A DNA stretch of 8,851 nt. It comes from Elusimicrobia bacterium HGW-Elusimicrobia-2. GTDB lineage: Bacteria; CG03. The notes under the pieces were generated by a model. It had not been told where the DNA came from and searched no databases. It saw only the letters and a list, made by a program, of their open reading frames with translations. The stretch spans positions 1 through 8,851 of the forward strand of contig PHAM01000069.1 in the NCBI GenBank assembly GCA_002841685.1, written 5' to 3'. The position numbers were made by a program, and so were the translations under genes. Positions 1 to 8,749 of this stretch are shown here, piece by piece (within the stretch, counting starts at the first letter, position 1; each line of letters opens with the position of its first letter).

Positions 1-1528
1 CTTTGAGGCCCGCTTCCCTGAGCATCGCCGTCAGGAGAACCGCCTGGCCTTTGCAGTCGCCATTTTTGTTGAGGAAGATCTCCTCCGCCTTGTGCGGCCT
101 GAAACCGGCTTCGCCGTATTCCACGGCCACATAGCGTATCTGCGACGCCACCCAGTGATATATGTTAGCGGCATTGGACCTGTCGGATGACATATCCATC
201 AGCTGGGCCGTTTTCTTCCTTATCTCGGGCGTGATGTCCATCCTGTCGGAAAGCATCTCCTTCCACCACAGGTATATCTGATCCCAGCTCTGAAAAGTGG
301 AAAACCTGAAACCGTCGCTTATCTCGTTCCACGGCGGCATGCTGTCCTCGGGTATTATATCCGGCACAAAGGGAAATTTCCAGATGTACAGCCTGTCCGT
401 TTTCGTCTTCTTCACGCGCGGGTCCAGTCTGTATTTCTTTTTGAGGTAAGAGTTTTTGAAAGACCTTATGTCGGGCGTGAATGAAAGAGGTATCTTCACG
501 CTCAATTCCTGATTGACATAGGGCTCAAAACCCTGTATGCCGTAGCGGAATATGACATTGCCCGACGGCAGTTTGTTTGACTTGTGCCGGACCCTGTAAA
601 CGATAACGGCGCCGGGCGTCACAGCCGGCATGGATATGATCTTCAGCCTCGCGTTTGAATAGAGCGGGAAATTCATGTACTTGGACACATCCCTCATCTG
701 CTGCGGCGACACATCCCGCGTCAGTCCCGAGGGCAGCACCGTGTAGGCATCCAGTATCTCAATGTCCTCATAGGTGGAATCGTATGTCAGCGCCACCTCC
801 GCGAACTGCTTCTTACCCCTGTCATTGAATATCTTTATGACCCTGAGCGACTCCGACAGCGACGAGGAATCGGCAAATATCTCATAGTTATCCCTGTCCA
901 TCAGCACAGCGGCCGCCGCTTCCGGATGATCTTCCTGCGATGGCGCCTTACTTATCAGTTCCGCTATTTCAGGGTCTATATCCTCTATGCGGCGGGGAAG
1001 ATTTTTGACGAGCTCGTTATATCTTCCGGCGGCTTTATCGGCGAATTCGCCGGCCTTTATTTTCCCATAAGCCGTTAAGGCCTCCTCAAAAAGATTCTTT
1101 CCCTCAAGGGTCCTCGCCCTGTAAAAGAGAAGCTCGCCGTCACCGGCCTTGTCGGCTTCTCCCTCTATCATGTCAAAATGATAAAGAGCCGATGTGGGAG
1201 AGCCCGTGTAATAATAGGAAAGCGCAAAAAACCTGTTTGCGGAATAGTCCGTGGCGCTCACCTTTTTAAGCGTCTCTATACAGCCGTCATAATCCCCGTT
1301 ATCAAAGAGGAATCCCGCTTTGAATTTCAGTATTTCGTCAGATGAAGCCGGCTTCCCGCCACGGTCCGCTTCCAGTTCCGAGCGCTCTATTCCCTGAAGG
1401 AGCAAGGCCTTCTCCGCGTTTATCTGATCGCGCTGAGCCTCCAGCCCGGCTATGTCAGCAAAAAGAATAGAGCGCGAAAATACAAGCGCGCTAAGTAAAA
1501 TCGGATATTTTCTCAAGTAGTTTATCAA
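1..1528 (-). CDS. Exported DUF3857 / transglutaminase-like protein, C-terminus cut by window edge
   Basis: An uninterrupted frame of about 509 codons runs off the left edge. From the TTG at 1528 it begins MINYLRKYPILLSALVFS and reaches ILFA-D near residue 24, which looks like a signal peptide although an Arg breaks the hydrophobic core. Residues about 50-180 are helical and TPR-like (FDNGDYDGCIETLKK, LFEEALTAYGKI). Residues about 220-330 fit DUF3857 (ESLRVIKIFNDRGKK through GAVIVYRVRHKS). The end of the visible part is a transglutaminase-type core with the catalytic-Cys motif NGDCKGQAVLLTAML, Cys492; the His and Asp of the triad would lie beyond the window. Members of this family are periplasmic or surface proteins of unclear substrate. 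The start overlaps proS by 38 nt and is preceded by GGAGG, so it is probably co-transcribed with proS. Domain calls are from motif recognition, not a search. Confidence 0.85.
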   Translation of the reverse strand, partial: MINYLRKYPILLSALVFSRSILFADIAGLEAQRDQINAEKALLLQGIERSELEADRGGKPASSDEILKFKAGFLFDNGDYDGCIETLKKVSATDYSANRFFALSYYYTGSPTSALYHFDMIEGEADKAGDGELLFYRARTLEGKNLFEEALTAYGKIKAGEFADKAAGRYNELVKNLPRRIEDIDPEIAELISKAPSQEDHPEAAAAVLMDRDNYEIFADSSSLSESLRVIKIFNDRGKKQFAEVALTYDSTYEDIEILDAYTVLPSGLTRDVSPQQMRDVSKYMNFPLYSNARLKIISMPAVTPGAVIVYRVRHKSNKLPSGNVIFRYGIQGFEPYVNQELSVKIPLSFTPDIRSFKNSYLKKKYRLDPRVKKTKTDRLYIWKFPFVPDIIPEDSMPPWNEISDGFRFSTFQSWDQIYLWWKEMLSDRMDITPEIRKKTAQLMDMSSDRSNAANIYHWVASQIRYVAVEYGEAGFRPHKAEEIFLNKNGDCKGQAVLLTAMLREAGLK

Positions 1529-3164
1529 GTTTAACGGCCTCCGTCTTTCCGTCCGCGCGGCTCTGTATCTCGCATTCGCCGGTCTTCATTCCCCGCGGCC
1601 CCAGCACTATCCTGACGGGAATGCCTATGAGGTCGGCGTCCTTGAACTTTATTCCGGCCGACACATCCCTGTCGTCAAACAGCACCTCGTATTTTTCCGC
1701 CAGCGCCTTATATATCTCTTCCGCCTTTTCCATGGCGGGTCCGGTTGACGAGGCCGCTATTATCTCTATCTGATAGGGAGCCATCCCCCTGGGCCATATT
1801 ATGCCCTTGTCGTCGTGATTCTGCGATATCAGCGCCGCCACTATCCTGGAGACGCCTATTCCGTAACAGCCCATCACTATAGGAAGGTCTTTGCCCGCCT
1901 TATCCGTGAAGGACGCCTTGAGCTTTTCAGAATATTTCGTTCCGAGATAGAAGGTGTGCCCTATCTCTATGCCCCGGGCGACAACCAGCGGCTTTCCGCA
2001 CTCGGGACAGGGGTCGCCGGCCTTCACCGTTCTTATGTTCATGAACTCCGCCTGAAAGTCCCGCGGGCAGTTGATATTTTTGATATGAGCGTCTTTTTTG
2101 TTGGCTCCGCTAACCATGTTACAACCGTATTTAATAGTATTATCCGCGTAGGCCTTTATCTTCAGTCCCACGGGCCCGGAAAAGCCCAGAGGCCCTCCCG
2201 TTATCTCCTCTATCTCTTTCTCATCAGCGAGCCTCGCGTCGTCGCCTATTATGGACCTGAGCTTGGCCGGATCAGCGCTGTGGTCGCCCCGCACCAGCAC
2301 GCAGGCGAAACCATCAGCCGTCCTGTAAATTAGCGTTTTAATAAACTTCTCCGCCGGCAGTTTGAGAAAGGCCGACACCTCTTCAACCGTCCGCACGCCG
2401 GGCGTTGAGACTTCCTCGAGCGGCAGTGGCTCTTCTTTGACGGAACTTATTTTTGAATACGCCAGCTCCTGATTCGCACCCCAGCCGCAGCCGCAATAGA
2501 CGAGCTCTTCCTCGCCCTCATCCGATGGGGCCATGAACTCGTGCGACTTCGTGCCGCCTATCAGCCCCGTCTTGGCGATGACAGGCACCGCCTCGAGCGA
2601 CAGCGCCGCGCATATCTTCTTATAGAGCGCGAACATCCTGTCATAAGACAAGCCCGCACCCTGCTCGTCGGCATCAAAACTGTAGGCGTCCTTCATTATG
2701 AACTCTCTCGCCCTCATCACGCCGAATCTCGGCCTTATCTCGTCCCTGTATTTCGTCTGTATCTGATAAAATGTTTTGGGAAGGTCCTTGTATGATTTTA
2801 TGTAATTTCCGGCCAGCTCCGTGATGGCTTCCTCGTGCGTGGGAGCGAGGCAGAATTCCCTGCCCTGCCTGTCTTTGAGGCGCATCAGCTCCGCGCCGTA
2901 TTCACCCCAGCGCCCCGTCTGCTCCCATAAACTTTTGGGAAGAAGCGCCGGAAGCAGCACTTCAAGACAGCCTTCAACGTCGTGCAGGTCTCTTATTACC
3001 TTCTCCACCCTGTTGAGCGCTTTTTTCCCCAGCGGCAGCCACTCGTATATCCCCGAGGCGAGTTTGCGTATCATGCCCGAGCGCAGCATCAGGATGTGCG
3101 ACGGCGTGACAGCGTCTGACGGCACTTCCTTCATTGTCGGTATAAGCGTTTTTGTATATCTCAT
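1491..3164 (-). CDS. proS: Prolyl-tRNA synthetase, bacterial type (ProS)
   Basis: Cytoplasmic enzyme that charges tRNA-Pro with proline using ATP. The 557-residue length fits the bacterial-type enzyme (E. coli about 572). Visible landmarks in order: N-terminal class II core with LASGIYEWLPLG (residues 35-46); the Pro-binding loop PTHEE (108-112); motif 2, KYRDEIRPRFGVMRAREF (138-155) followed by MKDAYSF; an inserted editing (INS/YbaK-like) domain about 225-385 carrying the Lys of KFIKTL (about 276) that corresponds to the editing Lys of the family; motif 3, MGCYGIGVSRIVAAL (431-445); and a C-terminal anticodon-binding domain about 460-557. Nothing is missing. There is no Shine-Dalgarno upstream of the ATG; a TATAAT hexamer ends 9 nt before it. 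The downstream transglutaminase gene overlaps the last 38 nt. Confidence 0.97.
   Translation of the reverse strand: MRYTKTLIPTMKEVPSDAVTPSHILMLRSGMIRKLASGIYEWLPLGKKALNRVEKVIRDLHDVEGCLEVLLPALLPKSLWEQTGRWGEYGAELMRLKDRQGREFCLAPTHEEAITELAGNYIKSYKDLPKTFYQIQTKYRDEIRPRFGVMRAREFIMKDAYSFDADEQGAGLSYDRMFALYKKICAALSLEAVPVIAKTGLIGGTKSHEFMAPSDEGEEELVYCGCGWGANQELAYSKISSVKEEPLPLEEVSTPGVRTVEEVSAFLKLPAEKFIKTLIYRTADGFACVLVRGDHSADPAKLRSIIGDDARLADEKEIEEITGGPLGFSGPVGLKIKAYADNTIKYGCNMVSGANKKDAHIKNINCPRDFQAEFMNIRTVKAGDPCPECGKPLVVARGIEIGHTFYLGTKYSEKLKASFTDKAGKDLPIVMGCYGIGVSRIVAALISQNHDDKGIIWPRGMAPYQIEIIAASSTGPAMEKAEEIYKALAEKYEVLFDDRDVSAGIKFKDADLIGIPVRIVLGPRGMKTGECEIQSRADGKTEAVKLDKLLEKISDFT
1538..1542 (-). promoter_or_regulatory. 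Ribosome binding site GGAGG fixing a TTG start inside proS
   Basis: GGAGG lies 9 nt before the TTG at 1528-1526. No ATG or GTG sits at a suitable distance. An in-frame TTG at 1516 is 21 nt from the GGAGG, too far, so 1528 is preferred. The site is inside the last codons of proS. Confidence 0.6.
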
Positions 3165-3216: not shown

Positions 3217-3288
3217 AAATGGTGCCAGGGGTTGACTTTCGATACTTATTGGAAAAAATGGAAAAAATGGGGACGTCCTTAATTTTTT
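3217..3288. repeat. 72-bp direct repeat, copy A (proS side of the AbiE-like cassette)
   Basis: Identical at all 72 positions to 5302-5373, offset 2085 bp. It starts AAATGGTGCCAGGGG, contains a tandem 9-mer (TGGAAAAAA twice) and TGGGGACGTCCTTAA, and ends in a T-run. It is non-coding. Identity stops sharply: copy A continues with TGAAAATGG, copy B with CTTATAAG. It resembles short dispersed intergenic repeats of the REP/MITE kind, but no transposase is in the window. Confidence 0.95.
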
Positions 3289-3291
3289 TGA

Positions 3292-3305
3292 AAATGGCGC
3301 CATTT
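3292..3305. repeat. 14-bp palindrome at the inner edge of repeat copy A
   Basis: AAATGGCGCCATTT is a perfect palindrome. Its right part, TGGCGCCATTT, is the reverse complement of the left start of the repeat (AAATGGTGCCA) at 10 of 11 positions. Positions 3217-3305 could therefore be one complete 89-bp element with imperfect terminal inverted repeats. Copy B lacks this end. It also lies just beyond the stop of the toxin gene, but it has no T-run in the right direction to act as an intrinsic terminator. Confidence 0.5.
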
Positions 3306-3317
3306 ATTTTCTCGCTT

Positions 3318-4160
3318 TTACAACTTTCCGGCAATTTTCTTCAATTGCCCGATGGGCATAACTATTTCCTTATCTGCGAATGTCCGCCCTAACCCGTATC
3401 GTTTCACAAGAATATCAGCGACATCTTTTGTCCCCATGGAAGCCTCGTTATCAAAGTATCTGTATATCGCTTCAAATCCGTCTTTGACATCTTTATTCCC
3501 CCTGTATTTCATCAATTCCTTTTCTACGGATTCCGGGCCGCTTTCAAAATTGACTATGGTATACCATATATCATAAGCGTCTTTTGCGTCTCTGTTCTCT
3601 TCATCCGAATATGCGAAAGCCTTTAATGTCAAAAAAGGTATTATATTCGGGATCTTTATCCGGACTGTCGCCGTGCCATGCATAAGTTTTCTTTCTATAA
3701 AATCCTCAAACACAAGGTACACTCCGCGAAATTTAACGGCATCCACGTCACGGGATATCTCCTTCAGTTTATCCGCCCTGGGCTCTAATTTATCATCAGT
3801 TATCAAATCTATGATTATAGGCTGGCCGCCGCCTTCATACTTTATAAAACTGTGATTGATCGCATCTATTCCGTCGGGAGTCTTTTGTTTTTCAAAGCCC
3901 ATAGACCGGAGTATCTTATAAAAGTTTTTGTATCTGCCTTTTTGTAAAACCGTTAATTTTACCGCAAGATCTATGTCAAGCGTTCCCAAATACTCTTTTA
4001 AGTACGGGAGTTTATTACCGACCAGCAGATCCGGCACAAGCCCGCCGACCAGATACAGATTTTTTGATATACTGCCGAACGCTTCATAGAGTACAGCCAG
4101 CATATTCATCAGCTTTCTCAGATGCGCGGGCGAGTAATCTTCAATCGCTTTCTTTCTCAT
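3318..4160 (-). CDS. AbiEii/AbiGii-like nucleotidyltransferase, putative type IV toxin
   Basis: A 280-residue protein of the DNA polymerase beta-type nucleotidyltransferase fold. The fold signature is LVGGLVPDLL (residues 37-46) followed by GTLDIDLAVK (59-68), giving the metal-binding pair Asp62/Asp64; the third acidic position is probably Asp118 in PIIIDLIT. A later KAFAY (about 180) and KDAYDIWY (193-200) match the C-terminal signature common to AbiEii-type toxins. Characterised relatives modify RNA (for example tRNA 3' ends) with nucleotides and stop growth. The start codon overlaps the stop of the upstream AbiEi-like gene by 4 nt (ATGA), with AAAGGA just before it, so the two are translationally coupled. 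All active-site residues I can recognise are present, so the toxin looks intact. The RNA target is unknown. Confidence 0.82.
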   Translation of the reverse strand: MRKKAIEDYSPAHLRKLMNMLAVLYEAFGSISKNLYLVGGLVPDLLVGNKLPYLKEYLGTLDIDLAVKLTVLQKGRYKNFYKILRSMGFEKQKTPDGIDAINHSFIKYEGGGQPIIIDLITDDKLEPRADKLKEISRDVDAVKFRGVYLVFEDFIERKLMHGTATVRIKIPNIIPFLTLKAFAYSDEENRDAKDAYDIWYTIVNFESGPESVEKELMKYRGNKDVKDGFEAIYRYFDNEASMGTKDVADILVKRYGLGRTFADKEIVMPIGQLKKIAGKL

Positions 4161-5209
4161 TTTGATCCTTTCCTGATGAGCGCAAGGATATGGCCGGCCT
4201 GCTTTTCTCCGCGCAGAGGATTCTTTTTGAGATCAGCGTAAAGCTGAAAATTATCCGCGGCTTTCAGGCCGTCCTTCTCCCGCGCATTTAACAACATATG
4301 ATCGTCCGGCGCCTCAATAACCGTCAGGTTAAATCCCGTATCCGCCGGGGAGGCGGATAAAGCTTTTGCGGGAAATTTTTCAAGCGAATCAACATACACC
4401 GTCACTATGTTAAACGAGGCGAACGGAGCCACCAATGACGCCCCCGCTTCCTGCGTAAAGGCATACTTCATCTTGCTGCCGGAAAGTTTGCCGGCTACAA
4501 CTTCCATCAGTTTTTGCGGATTTTGCGCCCAGAGATAATAATTCTTTTTTGCCTGACGGCGATTCGCTTCTGATTCAACCCAAGCGGAGAGCAGATCGTC
4601 AAAATTTGACAGCGCCAACTTTTTATCTTTTTTTATGACATATCCGGCTTCAGTCATTTTATTAATAACGCGTGAGATCAGCCCCTTGCTCAGGCCTGTC
4701 CTGCCGGCAATATCCCGCTGTATCCATTCCGCTTTCGGCTCAGCAAGAAACATTTTAGTGATACGGGCCGCCTTGGGCGAAAAAATAGACTGGCTGACCG
4801 CTGCCGCCCCTTTCAGACGCCCTGAACCCTGCGCGCTGACGAATATGCTTTCAACCGCTATTTTCGCGTTTCCGCTGAAATCAATATAGCCGATATTGTA
4901 TTTATCGCATATCTTTTTCCCCTGCCCGCTTATAACCGGGACAACCATGACCGGATAGTACGCGGGGTGCGACGAGATAAATTCCTTTAACGCAAGTATC
5001 CCGCTCCTGATATACTGGGGATAACCGGCCGGCTTTACCCCAATGCAGAAACGGTACTTTCGGCCTTTGAACTCGGCTGAGGCTAAAATATCAACGCCTG
5101 CCGGAGTGGTTTTCCCCCCGCGGGATATTTCCCAGCGGGAAAGAAAGGGAATACGCTTCTCCAGTTCTTTCCTTGCGTCCGCTATAAGTTTATTCTTATG
5201 TGTGTACAC
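4157..5209 (-). CDS. AbiEi-like winged-helix antitoxin/repressor with degenerate nuclease-like N-terminal domain
   Basis: A 350-residue protein encoded immediately before, and coupled to, the nucleotidyltransferase toxin. Residues about 30-115 look like a restriction-endonuclease fold: GVDIL (Asp40), then CIGVKP (55-60) where the family normally has an E-x-K, then YIDFSGNA (108-115). The acidic residue before VK is Gly here, so nuclease activity is unlikely. Residues about 145-200 are a winged helix-turn-helix (DIAGRTGLSKGLISRVINKM, then a wing with IKKDKKLAL). The remaining C-terminal half (about 205-350) would be the domain that counteracts the toxin. AbiEi proteins are known to bind inverted repeats in their own promoter, and such repeats are visible at 5231-5267. 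The start is GTG, chosen because AAAGGAGG lies 6 nt upstream. The family assignment is from motifs and pairing. Confidence 0.78.
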   Translation of the reverse strand: MYTHKNKLIADARKELEKRIPFLSRWEISRGGKTTPAGVDILASAEFKGRKYRFCIGVKPAGYPQYIRSGILALKEFISSHPAYYPVMVVPVISGQGKKICDKYNIGYIDFSGNAKIAVESIFVSAQGSGRLKGAAAVSQSIFSPKAARITKMFLAEPKAEWIQRDIAGRTGLSKGLISRVINKMTEAGYVIKKDKKLALSNFDDLLSAWVESEANRRQAKKNYYLWAQNPQKLMEVVAGKLSGSKMKYAFTQEAGASLVAPFASFNIVTVYVDSLEKFPAKALSASPADTGFNLTVIEAPDDHMLLNAREKDGLKAADNFQLYADLKKNPLRGEKQAGHILALIRKGSK

Positions 5210-5215
5210 AGCAGG

Positions 5216-5223
5216 CCTCCTTT
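5216..5223 (-). promoter_or_regulatory. Strong ribosome binding site of the AbiEi-like gene
   Basis: AAAGGAGG, six bases before the GTG at 5209-5207. It fixes the start at GTG. Confidence 0.8.
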
Positions 5224-5230
5224 ATAACAG

Positions 5231-5267
5231 GGTTTACCAATTTGTAAACCTTCTTATATAGTAAACC
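5231..5267. promoter_or_regulatory. Operator-like cluster: inverted repeat plus a third half-site
   Basis: On the plus strand: GGTTTAC (5231-5237), 6 nt, GTAAACC (5244-5250), 10 nt, GTAAACC (5261-5267). The first two form a perfect 7-bp-arm inverted repeat just downstream of the predicted transcription start. The third half-site overlaps the -10. A repressor bound here would block the promoter; the AbiEi-like protein is the obvious candidate. Confidence 0.65.
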
Positions 5268-5288
5268 ATACTTTCCCCTCTCTGTCAA
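5260..5288 (-). promoter_or_regulatory. Promoter of the AbiEi/AbiEii-like operon
   Basis: A perfect -35 TTGACA (5283-5288), a 17-nt spacer and TTTACT (5260-5265) as -10, within an AT-rich TTTACTATATAAG context. Transcription would begin near 5253, giving a leader of about 44 nt. The -35 starts about 14 nt inside the cassette from repeat copy B, so the promoter travels with the cassette. Confidence 0.65.
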
Positions 5289-5301
5289 GGAAGAAATGGA
5301 G

Positions 5302-5373
5302 AAATGGTGCCAGGGGTTGACTTTCGATACTTATTGGAAAAAATGGAAAAAATGGGGACGTCCTTAATTTTTT
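5302..5373. repeat. 72-bp direct repeat, copy B (GDYXXLXY side of the AbiE-like cassette)
   Basis: Identical to 3217-3288. It ends one base short of the stop codon of the GDYXXLXY gene (TAA at 5375-5377), so its outer end abuts that gene exactly. The palindromic end seen next to copy A is missing here. Confidence 0.95.
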
Positions 5374-5374
5374 C

Positions 5375-5884
5375 TTATAAGTGAACTACCCTGCCGTCTA
5401 TGAAAAGTTTGTTGATGATCCCGTTGCCGTGTTTGTCGACAATAACTTCCACCGCGACTTTACTGCGCCCGGCCATATTCTTCTCTATTTCCCTGCCTTT
5501 GCCTTCGGGAACAAAATAACTTTCAATGCCGTATTCAACAACGCCCCTGCGCCGGATCTTCCCTTTTATGACGACATCCCCTCTTTCTATTTCGTTTTTG
5601 GCTTTCATCGCGACAGCTTCCCAGTATTCCCCGACGGGTTCAAGTTTTACATACACTCTGTCGCCGCGGTTAAAATTTGATTTACCCGGAATGCTGCTCA
5701 AACTGCTGATCTTGTATCTTAAAATGACATAATCCCCCCGCAGAAAATCCCGCGGGTCAACCGGCACGGTTTCCAGCAGAACTTTTATTCCCGTCGCGAG
5801 GATGCGCTGTTTATATCCTATGAGCCCCAGCGCGAGAACCAGCCATAACCCCGCGATGCAAAAAGTGATATTTTTCCTGCTCAT
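5375..5884 (-). CDS. GDYXXLXY-domain membrane-anchored protein
   Basis: A 169-residue protein with one N-terminal membrane segment (about residues 6-24: ITFCIAGLWLVLALGLIGY). It is followed by an extracytoplasmic domain carrying the family signature PVDPRDFLRGDYVILRY, with GDYVILRY at residues 50-57. The rest is beta-rich and charged (RGDRVYVKLEP, RRGVVEYGIESYFVPEGKG). Function of the family is unknown. It commonly sits beside DUF2157/DUF4401 membrane proteins, and here the ATG overlaps the stop of the DUF2157 gene by 4 nt, which supports a joint role at the inner membrane. The stop codon touches repeat copy B, so any original downstream sequence has been replaced by the cassette or its repeat. 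Confidence 0.88.
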   Translation of the reverse strand: MSRKNITFCIAGLWLVLALGLIGYKQRILATGIKVLLETVPVDPRDFLRGDYVILRYKISSLSSIPGKSNFNRGDRVYVKLEPVGEYWEAVAMKAKNEIERGDVVIKGKIRRRGVVEYGIESYFVPEGKGREIEKNMAGRSKVAVEVIVDKHGNGIINKLFIDGRVVHL

Positions 5885-7560
5885 TCAGCGCCCCATTTTT
5901 CAATCACCTTTTTTCTCTGCTTTTCAAGATACGCCCCGCCGATCAGCATAAATAACCCGGCGATGATAAAAAACCAGGATTTCTCCGTCAATTCCCAGAA
6001 AACATCAACATATCTTGTGATTATAAGGAGAACAAAAATGACAATGCCCGAATTGAACACCCCTGAACTCCTAATAGCCATCCCGTAAAATATGCTGACA
6101 ACCGCCAGCAAAAATATTATCGTGTTCATGATCACTGTGTTGACCGACGCCAGCGCGGGAAAGAACAATATGAAAAGACTGCCCGAAAAAAGAGCGGCCA
6201 GGCAGATCAATTCCATCTTAAAATTTTTTGTCCTGACAGGGTGCTTATACAGGTTCCAGATCAGCAAAAGGTATGCCGCGATCACCAGCGCTAAACAGAC
6301 GATAAAAAAGAATCCATGCTCAAAACCCGCGTTCTGTATCAGCATTTTCTTGAAAGATAAAAGATACACGCATCCGGCGACGGTCGCGAAACCGATGCTT
6401 TTGTACAGGCCCGCGAAATGTTTTTTGCTCTCACTATGCAGCATCCCTATCAGATACAGGATGACGCCGATAAATAACTGTATGACTAATGTCGTAATGC
6501 CGTCGTATTTATCATTGAACACCTCTGAATACGGGTATAACATAAGGTGGAACCACAGGATGGCGCTGAAGATGTTGATGCACAGACTTTTTTTAAGCTT
6601 ATCCCTGTATGTGAAGAAAAACAGAGCGATGAGAGGAATGAGAAAATAGAAATTCGCCCGCTTTACCGCCGCCGCGTTGAAATAAACTATCTGCCAGGCG
6701 ATAAATGACAGCGAGGCCGCGGAAAAATATTTTTCTTCTTTTTTGATCAGGTAATAAACCAGCAGGCCGCCGCTGATGAATATTGCCAGCCACGAGTACT
6801 GCCAATGATACTCAACAAAACAGCAGGAAAAACTTGCCGCTAAAAGGCCCAGTATATTGATGTTTACCCACGCCCCCAGCTTAAACGCCATCGGCAGTAT
6901 CAGACAAAAAACGAGAACAGGGTAATAATAATTCGCCGCGCTGTTGCTGGAGTTATAAAGGAAATTCCAGGCGATGAGCAGTGCGGACGCGAGGAGAAAA
7001 ACATATTTGTTGTTAAAAAAATACGCCACCGGCAAAACAGGCAGCGCCCATAAGAGCATGATCATCCAGTTACCAGACGAGGGTATGTTGTAGATCTGGC
7101 ATATCAGTATGATACTGCTCCCCCAGAAAATAGAAGCAAGAAACAACAGGCTTTTTCCGAGCAGAGGATGCCCTTCTTTCTCGTAACTGAAATAATAGCC
7201 CGCGAAAAGCGCCGCTATTGTTATCAACAACAGGTTTATAGTGCGTATGTGGGCGGGGATTTTCCGCCAGTTGGACGCCACCAGGAATATGACGCCCACG
7301 CCTAAAAATATAGCGCCGATGATTAAAATGATTTTTACGGCGTCTGTCTTTTTCTTTTGCTGTCCGTTGTCCAGATGATAGAACTGCCGGATCATACCGC
7401 TTTGTTCGGTGTTTATTATTTCCTTTCCTTCCCACAGCGGCAGTTGTTTCCTCAGCCAGTCGCCGTGCCTGTTTCCCCCGAATATAGCGATCACGACCGT
7501 CCTCAGCACCGCATACGCGATGACAAGCATGAGCAGTGAGATTATAATGCCGCCGATCAT
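5881..7560 (-). CDS. DUF2157 polytopic membrane protein
   Basis: A 559-residue integral membrane protein with more than a dozen hydrophobic segments. The DUF2157 hallmark is a short soluble stretch (WLRKQLPLWEGKEI, then EQSGMIRQFYHL, about residues 35-65) followed by a first core helix pair, IILIIGAIFLGVGVIFLVASNWRKIP in outline, at about 77-102. Unusually, an extra helix (about residues 2-27, GGIIISLLMLVIAYAVL) precedes the soluble stretch, which is normally near the N-terminus. The C-terminus is basic and cytoplasm-like (EKQRKKVIEKWG). The start overlaps the stop of the small upstream gene (ATGA) and has no clear Shine-Dalgarno, so translation probably depends on coupling. The downstream GDYXXLXY gene is coupled in the same way. 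No enzymatic or transport activity can be inferred. Confidence 0.85.
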   Translation of the reverse strand: MIGGIIISLLMLVIAYAVLRTVVIAIFGGNRHGDWLRKQLPLWEGKEIINTEQSGMIRQFYHLDNGQQKKKTDAVKIILIIGAIFLGVGVIFLVASNWRKIPAHIRTINLLLITIAALFAGYYFSYEKEGHPLLGKSLLFLASIFWGSSIILICQIYNIPSSGNWMIMLLWALPVLPVAYFFNNKYVFLLASALLIAWNFLYNSSNSAANYYYPVLVFCLILPMAFKLGAWVNINILGLLAASFSCCFVEYHWQYSWLAIFISGGLLVYYLIKKEEKYFSAASLSFIAWQIVYFNAAAVKRANFYFLIPLIALFFFTYRDKLKKSLCINIFSAILWFHLMLYPYSEVFNDKYDGITTLVIQLFIGVILYLIGMLHSESKKHFAGLYKSIGFATVAGCVYLLSFKKMLIQNAGFEHGFFFIVCLALVIAAYLLLIWNLYKHPVRTKNFKMELICLAALFSGSLFILFFPALASVNTVIMNTIIFLLAVVSIFYGMAIRSSGVFNSGIVIFVLLIITRYVDVFWELTEKSWFFIIAGLFMLIGGAYLEKQRKKVIEKWGAE

Positions 7561-7787
7561 AGTTCTTTCGCGCTCTCGCGTGCGACGATTTTAGGGTGAC
7601 TCCGGGATTGTTGGCGGTCGGGTCTCTGCCCCCGGATCATTTTGTATCGCCATTTCTCCGCCTCCTCAAAGGTCTTGAATTTGTAAACGCCCGTCGGGAT
7701 AAATTTTTTGTCTTTTCTGAATGCGGCCATCAATTTCAGAAACTTGTTCAGTTCTTCCGTGAAGCCTTTTTTAATTTTGTTTTTCAT
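7557..7787 (-). CDS. Small basic protein with G-V-Y-K-F-x-T-F-E-E-A motif
   Basis: A 76-residue, Lys-rich protein. The N-terminal half (ELNKFLKLMAAFRKDKKF) is a likely helix. The centre has PTGVYKFKTFEEAEKWRYKM (residues 31-50), then a polar tail with RPDRQQSRSH. Small proteins with this GV-x-x-F-x-x-x-EEA pattern are, from memory, often encoded next to nucleotidyltransferase or similar toxins and may be their antitoxins. Here no such toxin follows; the gene is instead coupled by a 4-nt overlap to a DUF2157 membrane protein. It begins 47 nt after the preceding gene and lacks a convincing Shine-Dalgarno, though a weak promoter could serve it. The frame and coupling make it real; its role is unknown. 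Confidence 0.65.
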   Translation of the reverse strand: MKNKIKKGFTEELNKFLKLMAAFRKDKKFIPTGVYKFKTFEEAEKWRYKMIRGQRPDRQQSRSHPKIVARESAKEL

Positions 7788-7794
7788 CTGCTAA

Positions 7795-7824
7795 ATACTA
7801 ACAATTGCCCCGCCCAAACATCAA
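7795..7824 (-). promoter_or_regulatory. Weak possible promoter for the EEA-motif/DUF2157/GDYXXLXY genes
   Basis: TTGATG (7819-7824), 18 nt, TAGTAT (7795-7800), with transcription predicted to start almost at the ATG of 7787. Matches are only four of six in each hexamer. It is listed because the gap between genes here is the only place a separate promoter could sit, and because the layout would again give a leaderless mRNA as at proS. Confidence 0.25.
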
Positions 7825-7834
7825 GAGACAAAAT

Positions 7835-8041
7835 CTATAGATCGCTGTCCAGTATCGCCATAGGCATACCGGGCCTTTTGAAGCCCTGCGCCTTCATCAT
7901 CCCGAGAACTGTCGCTTCCACCCAGCCCGGATCTTTAGCGGCTCTACGGTAAAGCCGGGGCTTTGAAATAGGGCTTATCGCCACCCCGAGGATAATGATG
8001 GGTTTTCGTTCGTCTTTCGCTTCCGTGATTTTCTTTTTCAT
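7835..8041 (-). CDS. Unrecognised 68-residue protein, second gene of a palindrome-controlled pair
   Basis: I do not recognise this protein. It starts with a basic, charged stretch (MKKKITEAKDERK), then a short hydrophobic strand (PIIILGVAIS), then ISKPRLYRRAAKDPGWVEAT and a C-terminus rich in Met/Gly/Pro (MMKAQGFKRPGMPM) ending LDSDL. It has no signal peptide or membrane helix. Its ATG overlaps the stop of the 145-residue gene by 4 nt, and GGGGAG lies 6 nt before it, so it is coupled and well translated. The conserved-looking Trp/Gly/Pro pattern suggests a small folded domain rather than a random frame. It could be the partner (toxin or antitoxin) of the upstream protein, but that rests only on gene layout. 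Confidence 0.6.
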   Translation of the reverse strand: MKKKITEAKDERKPIIILGVAISPISKPRLYRRAAKDPGWVEATVLGMMKAQGFKRPGMPMAILDSDL

Positions 8042-8475
8042 TTGTTTCTCCCCGCGCCGCGGCTCTTCCGGTCATCAGATATCATGCCTTCCAGGAAATC
8101 GGCGATTTCCCCGTCAATCTTGTTCTTTTTGAGAATACCGACCCATTTTTTGATTTTGCGGGGATTGACGGCGATATTTCTGTTTATTTTTTTACTCTTG
8201 TTAATTAATTTTTCCGCCAGCAGCAACTTGATCAGTTCCGTGGGCTTCCTGTTTTCTTTTTCCGCGCGCTCTATAAGTTTCTTGTATGTGAATATGGATA
8301 TGGCTTTTTTGATATCCTGCGAGGTTAATTTTTTCAGCTCATCAAACAGCGGTTTTTCCCCGTCATTGAACGCGATACAGACATTCTTGGAATGCCGTTT
8401 CCCGTCCGAGGCTATCAACGGGAGATACACCGACAAATAATTTCTTTTCACGTCTTTAATTTTACCTTTTCTCAT
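8038..8475 (-). CDS. Unrecognised 145-residue Lys-rich protein, first gene of a palindrome-controlled pair
   Basis: I do not recognise this protein. Start ATG at 8475 is chosen because AAAGGAGG lies 6 nt upstream; the frame is open further up to 8523 but that part is the promoter itself. The N-terminal 35 residues look like beta strands (RNYLSVYLPLIASD, SKNVCIAF). Residues about 38-90 look helical and include KPLFDELKKLTSQDIKKAIS and PTELIKLLLAEKL. Residues 90-120 are strongly basic (INKSKKINRN, NPRKIKKWVG). The protein ends with a helix and a charged tail. Its high Lys content and helical core would suit nucleic-acid binding, and an autorepressor acting at the palindrome in its promoter is plausible but unproven. 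Codon and base composition are clearly AT-richer than proS, consistent with acquisition. Confidence 0.7.
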   Translation of the reverse strand: MRKGKIKDVKRNYLSVYLPLIASDGKRHSKNVCIAFNDGEKPLFDELKKLTSQDIKKAISIFTYKKLIERAEKENRKPTELIKLLLAEKLINKSKKINRNIAVNPRKIKKWVGILKKNKIDGEIADFLEGMISDDRKSRGAGRNK

Positions 8476-8481
8476 TTCATT

Positions 8482-8489
8482 CCTCCTTT
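8482..8489 (-). promoter_or_regulatory. Strong ribosome binding site deciding the start of the 145-residue gene
   Basis: AAAGGAGG, 6 nt before the ATG at 8475-8473. It starts almost at the predicted transcription start, so the leader is only about 13 nt. Confidence 0.8.
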
Positions 8490-8494
8490 GCTGT

Positions 8495-8523
8495 ATCATA
8501 TCACATTGTGATATGCCTGTCAA
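8495..8523 (-). promoter_or_regulatory. Strong sigma-70-type promoter of the two-gene unknown module
   Basis: TTGACA (8518-8523), exactly 17 nt, then TATGAT (8495-8500). This is the best promoter in the window. Predicted start of transcription is near 8488. Confidence 0.8.
8497..8515. promoter_or_regulatory. 19-bp palindromic operator inside the promoter spacer
   Basis: CATATCACATTGTGATATG is a perfect palindrome with one central base (8506). It fills most of the -35/-10 spacer and overlaps the -10, the position expected for tight repression by a dimeric regulator. Confidence 0.75.
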
Positions 8524-8569: not shown

Positions 8570-8609
8570 TCCAGCTTAATTCATGACGCAGTGCGTCACA
8601 TTTTGGATA
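8570..8609. repeat. 40-bp imperfect direct repeat, copy 1, with 15-bp palindrome
   Basis: It matches 8647-8686 at 32 of 40 positions, 77 bp away. It contains TGACGCAGTGCGTCA, palindromic about its central base (8584-8598). The repeat is the coding sequence for the CDALRHELSW segment of the second DUF1016 fragment, so the palindrome has a coding explanation. Confidence 0.8.
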
Positions 8610-8646
8610 GGAAAGATAAAATTGCCTGATGTTGCGCAGAAGTGTG

Positions 8647-8686
8647 TCCAGCTTAATTCTCGACGCACTGCGTCGAGAATTGGATA
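8647..8686. repeat. 40-bp imperfect direct repeat, copy 2, with 27-bp perfect palindrome
   Basis: It contains a perfect palindrome at 8655-8681 (13-bp arms around C8668; core CGACGCACTGCGTCG). It encodes ILDAVRREL of the first DUF1016 fragment. No T-run follows on either strand, so it is not a normal terminator. The hairpin may have promoted the duplication and frameshift seen here. Confidence 0.85.
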
Positions 8687-8749
8687 CGTCTGATAGAATT
8701 TACGCATATTCCATAAATTACTGCTATCAAATCCTTTACCAAAATTGTC

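Follow-up and report, generated by a model that had tools for sequence, protein, structure and literature searches.

Type IV toxin-antitoxin systems of the AbiE type are marked by a toxic AbiEii protein that is neutralized by AbiEi without direct contact, and by autorepression. For AbiEii proteins, Dy et al. (PMC3985639) described motifs I, II, and IV and the motif III lysine, and the COG4861-COG4849 pairing was already recognized in that study. RAYT-associated repeats (REPs, REPINs, BIMEs, and TIR-type repeats; PMC3733652, PMC8266576) are short, dispersed elements with a genus-level distribution that occur as doublets, bound a Y1 transposase gene in inverted orientation, and lie near and inside genes. 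Di Nocera et al. (PMC3733652) described REPs located within genes as well as the TIR repeats that accompany RAYT genes, and listed the Rickettsia palindromic elements RPE-4 and RPE-6 among CGTC-tagged repeats.

The window that we analyzed is an entire contig (C19; 8,851 bp) of G000, the genome of an uncultured Elusimicrobiota bacterium (1.78 Mb, 94 contigs, 96% complete), and it was compared with three further genomes (G001, G002, and G003), the four being species-level metagenome-assembled genomes of one genus. Apart from two direct 72-mers on the plus strand with a spacing of 2,085 bp, the window contains no perfect repeat of appreciable size; these lie as copy A at 3217-3288 and copy B at 5302-5373, and we confirmed them to be identical at 72 of 72 positions. 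A sequence-only reading of this DNA had proposed that the two copies bracket an AbiE-like operon with its promoter and operator and nothing else, and the open reading frames and the sequence between the copies agree. The enclosed DNA consists of an AbiEii-like gene (3318-4160, minus strand), an AbiEi-like gene (4157-5209, minus strand), 92 bp of promoter/operator sequence (5210-5301), and a downstream spacer of 29 bp between copy A and the AbiEii stop (3289-3317) that contains the palindrome-like AAAATGGCGCCATTT. On the left, copy A lies upstream of proS (1491-3164, minus strand), with 52 bp between the proS start at 3164 and the start of the repeat; on the right, one base separates the end of copy B from the stop codon of the GDYXXLXY gene (5375-5884, minus strand), which forms an operon with a DUF2157 gene. 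Identity between the two copies breaks off sharply at both repeat ends, and these ends are also those of full-length copies in a dispersed repeat family.

Two other features of the window lie outside this arrangement. Beside the DUF2157 gene are three small open reading frames (76, 68, and 161 aa; 7557-8523) with no Pfam or PADLOC match, and at 8570-8700 there are two copies (76%) of a 54-bp repeat with the palindromes GACGCAGTGCGTC and GACGCACTGCGTC and inverted arms.

The gene pair between the repeats

The AbiEi and AbiEii reading frames overlap by 4 bp, with the winged-helix gene directly upstream of the nucleotidyltransferase gene. The upstream gene has a GTG start and encodes a 350-aa predicted antitoxin/repressor with a winged helix at about residues 160 to 206, and the downstream gene encodes a 280-aa predicted toxin. 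Although neither window protein matched an AbiE Pfam model, the AbiE label was borne out through homologues of the pair (best E values, 1e-46 and 6e-21): when scanned singly, 13 of 15 upstream homologues matched PF09952 (AbiEi_2) and 9 of 14 downstream homologues matched PF08843 (AbiEii), with PF12281 also found among the downstream matches. Scans with PADLOC, NCBIfam, and PHROG gave no useful family for the predicted toxin. Homologues of the 350-aa protein were found in 28 of 386 genomes, patchily across many families and at 31% identity for the best match, and at most of the homologous loci, across phyla, a homologue of the 280-aa protein is encoded next to it, with the gene order unchanged.

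In an alignment of 14 AbiEii sequences, the GG, DxD, K, and KD columns were invariant, and D197 was conserved at 90% or more; the window protein carries G39 G40 (motif I), D62-I-D64 (motif II), and K193 D194 with D197. These columns match motifs I, II, and IV and the lysine of motif III. Within motif III, K180 is present, the nearly invariant arginine column of the homologues is occupied by E187, and R190 follows three residues on, after a small insertion. AlphaFold models of AbiEii from a single sequence and from four sequences had pLDDT values of 33 and 50, and their Foldseek/VIA matches (kinases and helical bundles) were discarded; given this low confidence, no structure match was usable.

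The promoter region, as read from the minus strand of 5210-5301, contains AAAGGAGG at 5216-5223, before the AbiEi GTG start, a GGTTTAC palindrome, GGTTTACCAATTTGTAAACC, at 5231-5250, an extra GTAAACC at 5261-5267, and a -35-like TTGACA at 5283-5288. The palindrome together with the extra GTAAACC is a candidate operator. The gene pair is, by its family, a predicted AbiE-type type IV toxin-antitoxin system; the operon would act as a toxin-antitoxin/abortive-infection module in which AbiEi would repress its own promoter and counter AbiEii.

The AbiEi-AbiEii pair was also present in three viral contigs (IMG/VR; L179-L184), in one of which (L179) it lies between the terminase and portal genes, a position suggesting that the family travels with phages. 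Given its patchy distribution and its presence in phage contigs, the pair looks mobile elsewhere. Among 20 distant AbiE loci, surveyed without a matched control, two had closely bracketing direct repeats, which were diverged and unrelated to those of the window: a duplicated hsdS 3' end in L161 (81 bp at 83%) and 57-bp repeats at 89% in L177. Looser repeats occurred in a few repeat-rich loci, and most of the 20 have none; on whether AbiE pairs are generally bracketed in this way, the survey offers no more than a hint. In L161, the pair lies between hsdS and the diverged copy of its 3' end (2748-2828 and 4929-5008), and the AbiEii frame is split in two.

The repeat family and RAYT transposases

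The 72-bp repeat is a doublet of two dispersed modules, each of which also occurs alone: module 1, AAATGGTGCCAGGGGTTGACTTTCGATACTTATTG (3217-3251 in copy A), and module 2, GGGGACGTCCTTAAT or GAAAAAATGGAAAAAATGGGGACGTCCTTAATTTTTT (3252-3288). A genome search found 14 repeat matches in G000, 11 in G001, 31 in G002, and 20 in G003, with four weak matches in a neighboring genus of the same family, zero in the other phylum genomes searched, and none in the viral contigs searched. The earlier description of a dispersed short repeat is thus upheld, at a copy number in G000 well short of the many hundreds at which the bracketing was to be put down to chance. Sites matching the module-2 pattern with two or fewer mismatches numbered 13 in G000, 37 in G002, 9 in G001, and 16 in G003, and a reversed control pattern had 0 sites in the same four genomes. 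Among 84,980 species genomes, an exact 20-mer was found only in this genus (Elusimicrobia CG03_land_8_20_14_0_80_50_18, 'bacterium isolate 01_128'). Full doublets are present four times in G000 (A, B, and one each on contigs C90 and C85) and on contig C73 of G002. The C90 and C85 doublets differ from A and B by 4 to 6 substitutions plus 8 to 9 gap positions, and no third identical 72-bp copy was found in the 96%-complete G000. Folding of the 72-bp repeat showed no excess stability (z 0.6) and predicted no strong hairpin; its only pseudo-palindrome lies around GGACGTCC.

On contig C53 of G002, module 2 occurs at 1202 (+) and 1926 (-) as inverted ends around a Y1_Tnp open reading frame, with GAAAAAGGGGACGTCCTTAATATT before the gene and GAAAATTAAGGACGTCCCCTTTTTC after it. 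RAYT genes flanked by terminal repeats are laid out in this way, and the other RAYT genes of the genus have inverted ends of their own in a similar layout. For module 1, there is no more than a resemblance to the GGGGTCAGGTCTTGACATT end of a 322-aa RAYT type. A RAYT of the module-2 type was not found in G000, which has only L009- and L010-type RAYTs, and copies A and B contain no transposase open reading frame. We class the 72-bp repeat as RAYT-associated (Y1/IS200-like), with the untagged TIR-type repeats as the better fit; as folding predicts no stable hairpin, we did not place it among the canonical GTAG REPs. Since it is a RAYT-associated terminal repeat that is present also inside genes, the repeat is not a dedicated cassette boundary.

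Both filled and empty orthologous positions of module 1 were seen in the genus. Module 1 lies in frame inside a U32 peptidase gene in L137/L138 (G003:C62 and G001:C2), as against L144 (G000:C57), and twice in tandem in the gene for the glycine-cleavage T protein (GcvT) in L149 (G002:C33), as against L148 and L150; in both cases there are orthologues without it. Repeats also lie over start codons, where they are translated as the start of predicted secretion signals (MKKCRTSPF..., MKKLRTSPF..., and MRKLRTSPF...), in L125 (G000:C85, 9713 and 12437), L022 (G001:C139, 5034), L122 (G002:C53, 1926), L133 (G002:C73, 4004), and L121 (G003:C98, 7775 and 8245). Enrichment of repeats at signal-peptide starts is weak (9 of 71, versus 6.7% at random positions).

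The orthologous site and the origin of the bracketed operon

We used proS, whose protein is 98% identical to that of G000 in G003 and 93% identical in G002, to locate the orthologous site in the relatives. G001, G002, and G003 have no AbiE relative, so none of these genomes carries the pair at this site without the repeats. In G002, proS is separated from the GDYXXLXY gene by a spacer that contains a single module-2 repeat, with neither module 1 nor a cassette. The right-hand junction of this repeat, TTAATTTTTTCTTATAA-TGAACT, is the junction found at copy B, and when the window is reduced in silico to a site with one repeat, this virtual site aligns with G002 across the junction, while the left flank of the resident G002 repeat differs from that of the window. 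Because module 2 of copy B shares its junction with G002, it is probably ancestral, and copy B is probably the older of the two copies. The cassette-free, one-repeat relative that the sequence-only reading had suggested looking for therefore exists as far as module 2 is concerned, but module 1 is missing there, and a full 72-bp excision scar was seen in none of the relatives. In G003, the spacer (L042, 2062-3110) has a different proS upstream region and an unrelated 287-aa open reading frame with no Pfam match, and it contains no repeat. Three species thus have three different contents at one position, and the proS-GDYXXLXY spacer is a variable insertion site. In G002, moreover, the GDYXXLXY-DUF2157 pair is itself bracketed by direct repeats of about 125 bp that are 94% identical (L041, 2996-3122 and 5356-5477) and that stretch from the proS 5' end across its upstream region into module 2, stopping near the T-rich end of that module, so that breakpoints have fallen near that end at least twice.

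To date the duplication, we compared the repeats with fourfold-degenerate sites, which differ by 6 to 9% between G000 and G003 and by 16 to 33% between G000 and G002. Had copies A and B diverged since the G003 split, about 4 to 7 differences would be expected in 72 bp; there are 0, for which we calculated a Poisson probability of about 0.001 to 0.02. The duplication is therefore younger than the split of G000 and G003, unless the copies were converted, and this bears out the earlier claim of a recent event; taken as a whole, the earlier interpretation is supported in part. The distribution of the cassette points to the same branch as the repeat duplication.

Mainly on account of this match in timing, we favor, with a little better than even confidence, a single coupled event in which the cassette was gained recently at a pre-existing repeat and the repeat was duplicated along with it. 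The 72-bp repeats would be two copies of a dispersed, nonautonomous element built of terminal repeats of RAYT-type Y1 transposases, and, judging from the shared junction, the common ancestor of G000 and G002 probably already had a repeat comprising module 2 or more in its proS-GDYXXLXY spacer. In the G000 lineage, the AbiEi-AbiEii operon, probably of horizontal origin, would have been added together with the second repeat copy. The most likely route would be a recombination event at the resident repeat: a molecule bearing the operon and a single repeat could have integrated there through one crossover, or template switching (repeat-templated copying) at the repeat could have inserted the operon. 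The direct repeats would in turn allow deletion of the cassette by homologous recombination or slippage, restoring a one-repeat site. Several observations count against this coupled gain: the exact ancestral 72-mer was not seen in G002, no donor molecule with cassette and repeat was found, the module-2-type RAYT was not found in G000 itself, the genus is represented by four metagenome-assembled genomes, and at this site the nearest relative, G003, lacks a repeat and carries another insertion, so that loss of an older cassette is conceivable.

The main rival, which we consider unlikely though deserving of serious attention, is two independent insertions: the operon would have arrived beside the old repeat by other means, and a RAYT acting in trans would have copied a second doublet to its other side, making the bracketing coincidental and leaving the repeats without a part in the gain. 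The mobility of the family, apparent from the filled and empty module 1 sites, fits such a history, as do the doublets elsewhere and the RAYT genes present in G000. However, chance would be unlikely to put a second copy, without a single difference in 72 bp, in the same orientation and directly against the ends of the operon; G000 has only four full doublets, and the other two differ from A and B. If placement were random, two such doublets would lie as direct repeats less than 2.1 kb apart with a probability of about 0.7%, an estimate that leaves their perfect identity out of the count and serves as a guide only, since repeats of this kind do cluster.

It is improbable, in our judgment, that the two repeats are instead the ends of one unit and that a Y1 transposase moved the operon through a single-stranded or circular intermediate. 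Module 2 does form the ends of a RAYT gene, and its T-rich end is also where the direct repeats around the GDYXXLXY-DUF2157 pair of G002 stop; against this, the cassette has no second genomic location, no such unit was seen elsewhere among the examined loci, no cognate RAYT was found in G000, and no 2-kb passenger mobilized by a RAYT is described in the papers that we consulted. We give equally little credence to the broader proposal that host genes in this genus are acquired at RAYT-type repeats and moved with the repeats as their ends, which would amount to an integron-free gene-cassette system based on repeats, in which the defense operon would have been picked up between two copies, moved in single-stranded or circular form, and lost again.

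Gene conversion between adjacent direct repeats is common in general, and an older bracketing whose two repeats were recently made identical by conversion would agree with the ancestral look of module 2 in copy B, but the absence of the cassette from three congeners would then demand several losses, and we regard this history as very improbable. Least probable of all is a false join made by a metagenome assembler misled by the repeat, for although G000 is fragmented and the word lengths used in assembly can be 72 bp or shorter, G002 independently shows the B-side junction, the A side runs into a proS upstream region shared with G002, and the flanking genes are intact.

Comparison with described systems

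If the coupled gain is correct, the locus offers a concrete case of a toxin-antitoxin operon whose likely point of entry was a RAYT-type repeat and which now lies between identical direct repeats, an arrangement from which easy loss would be predicted, with a sister species that has the likely pre-insertion site. It also connects a transposase with its repeat family in the Elusimicrobiota, a little-studied phylum; a literature search that omitted most subscription journals found no paper on such repeats in this phylum. Strains in which the cassette and the second repeat come and go together would support repeat-mediated turnover of defense genes.

With the COG4861-COG4849 branch of AbiE systems (AbiEi_2, PF09952, with AbiEii, PF08843, or NTP_transf_8, PF12281), the window pair shares its gene order, an overlapping operon, the hGG...DhD, K, and D motifs, and a palindrome in the promoter; it differs in proteins too divergent for the Pfam models and in E187, which occupies the motif III arginine column. 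Composite (IS-flanked) transposons likewise carry passenger genes between two identical repeats, but a composite transposon was ruled out here, as the 72-bp flanking repeats encode no transposase. Module 1, in its in-frame insertion in conserved protein genes, is like the Rickettsia palindromic elements, a likeness in the mode of insertion that was seen at only a few orthologous sites. With RAYT-associated repeats, the family shares all of the features given at the outset; in contrast to these, no strong hairpin is predicted, the copy in the window lacks the GTAG tag, and the duplication here is of an entire doublet, with a passenger operon between the two copies. Each part of the locus is thus of a known kind, and it is their combination, with a likely pre-insertion site, that makes a modest new case.
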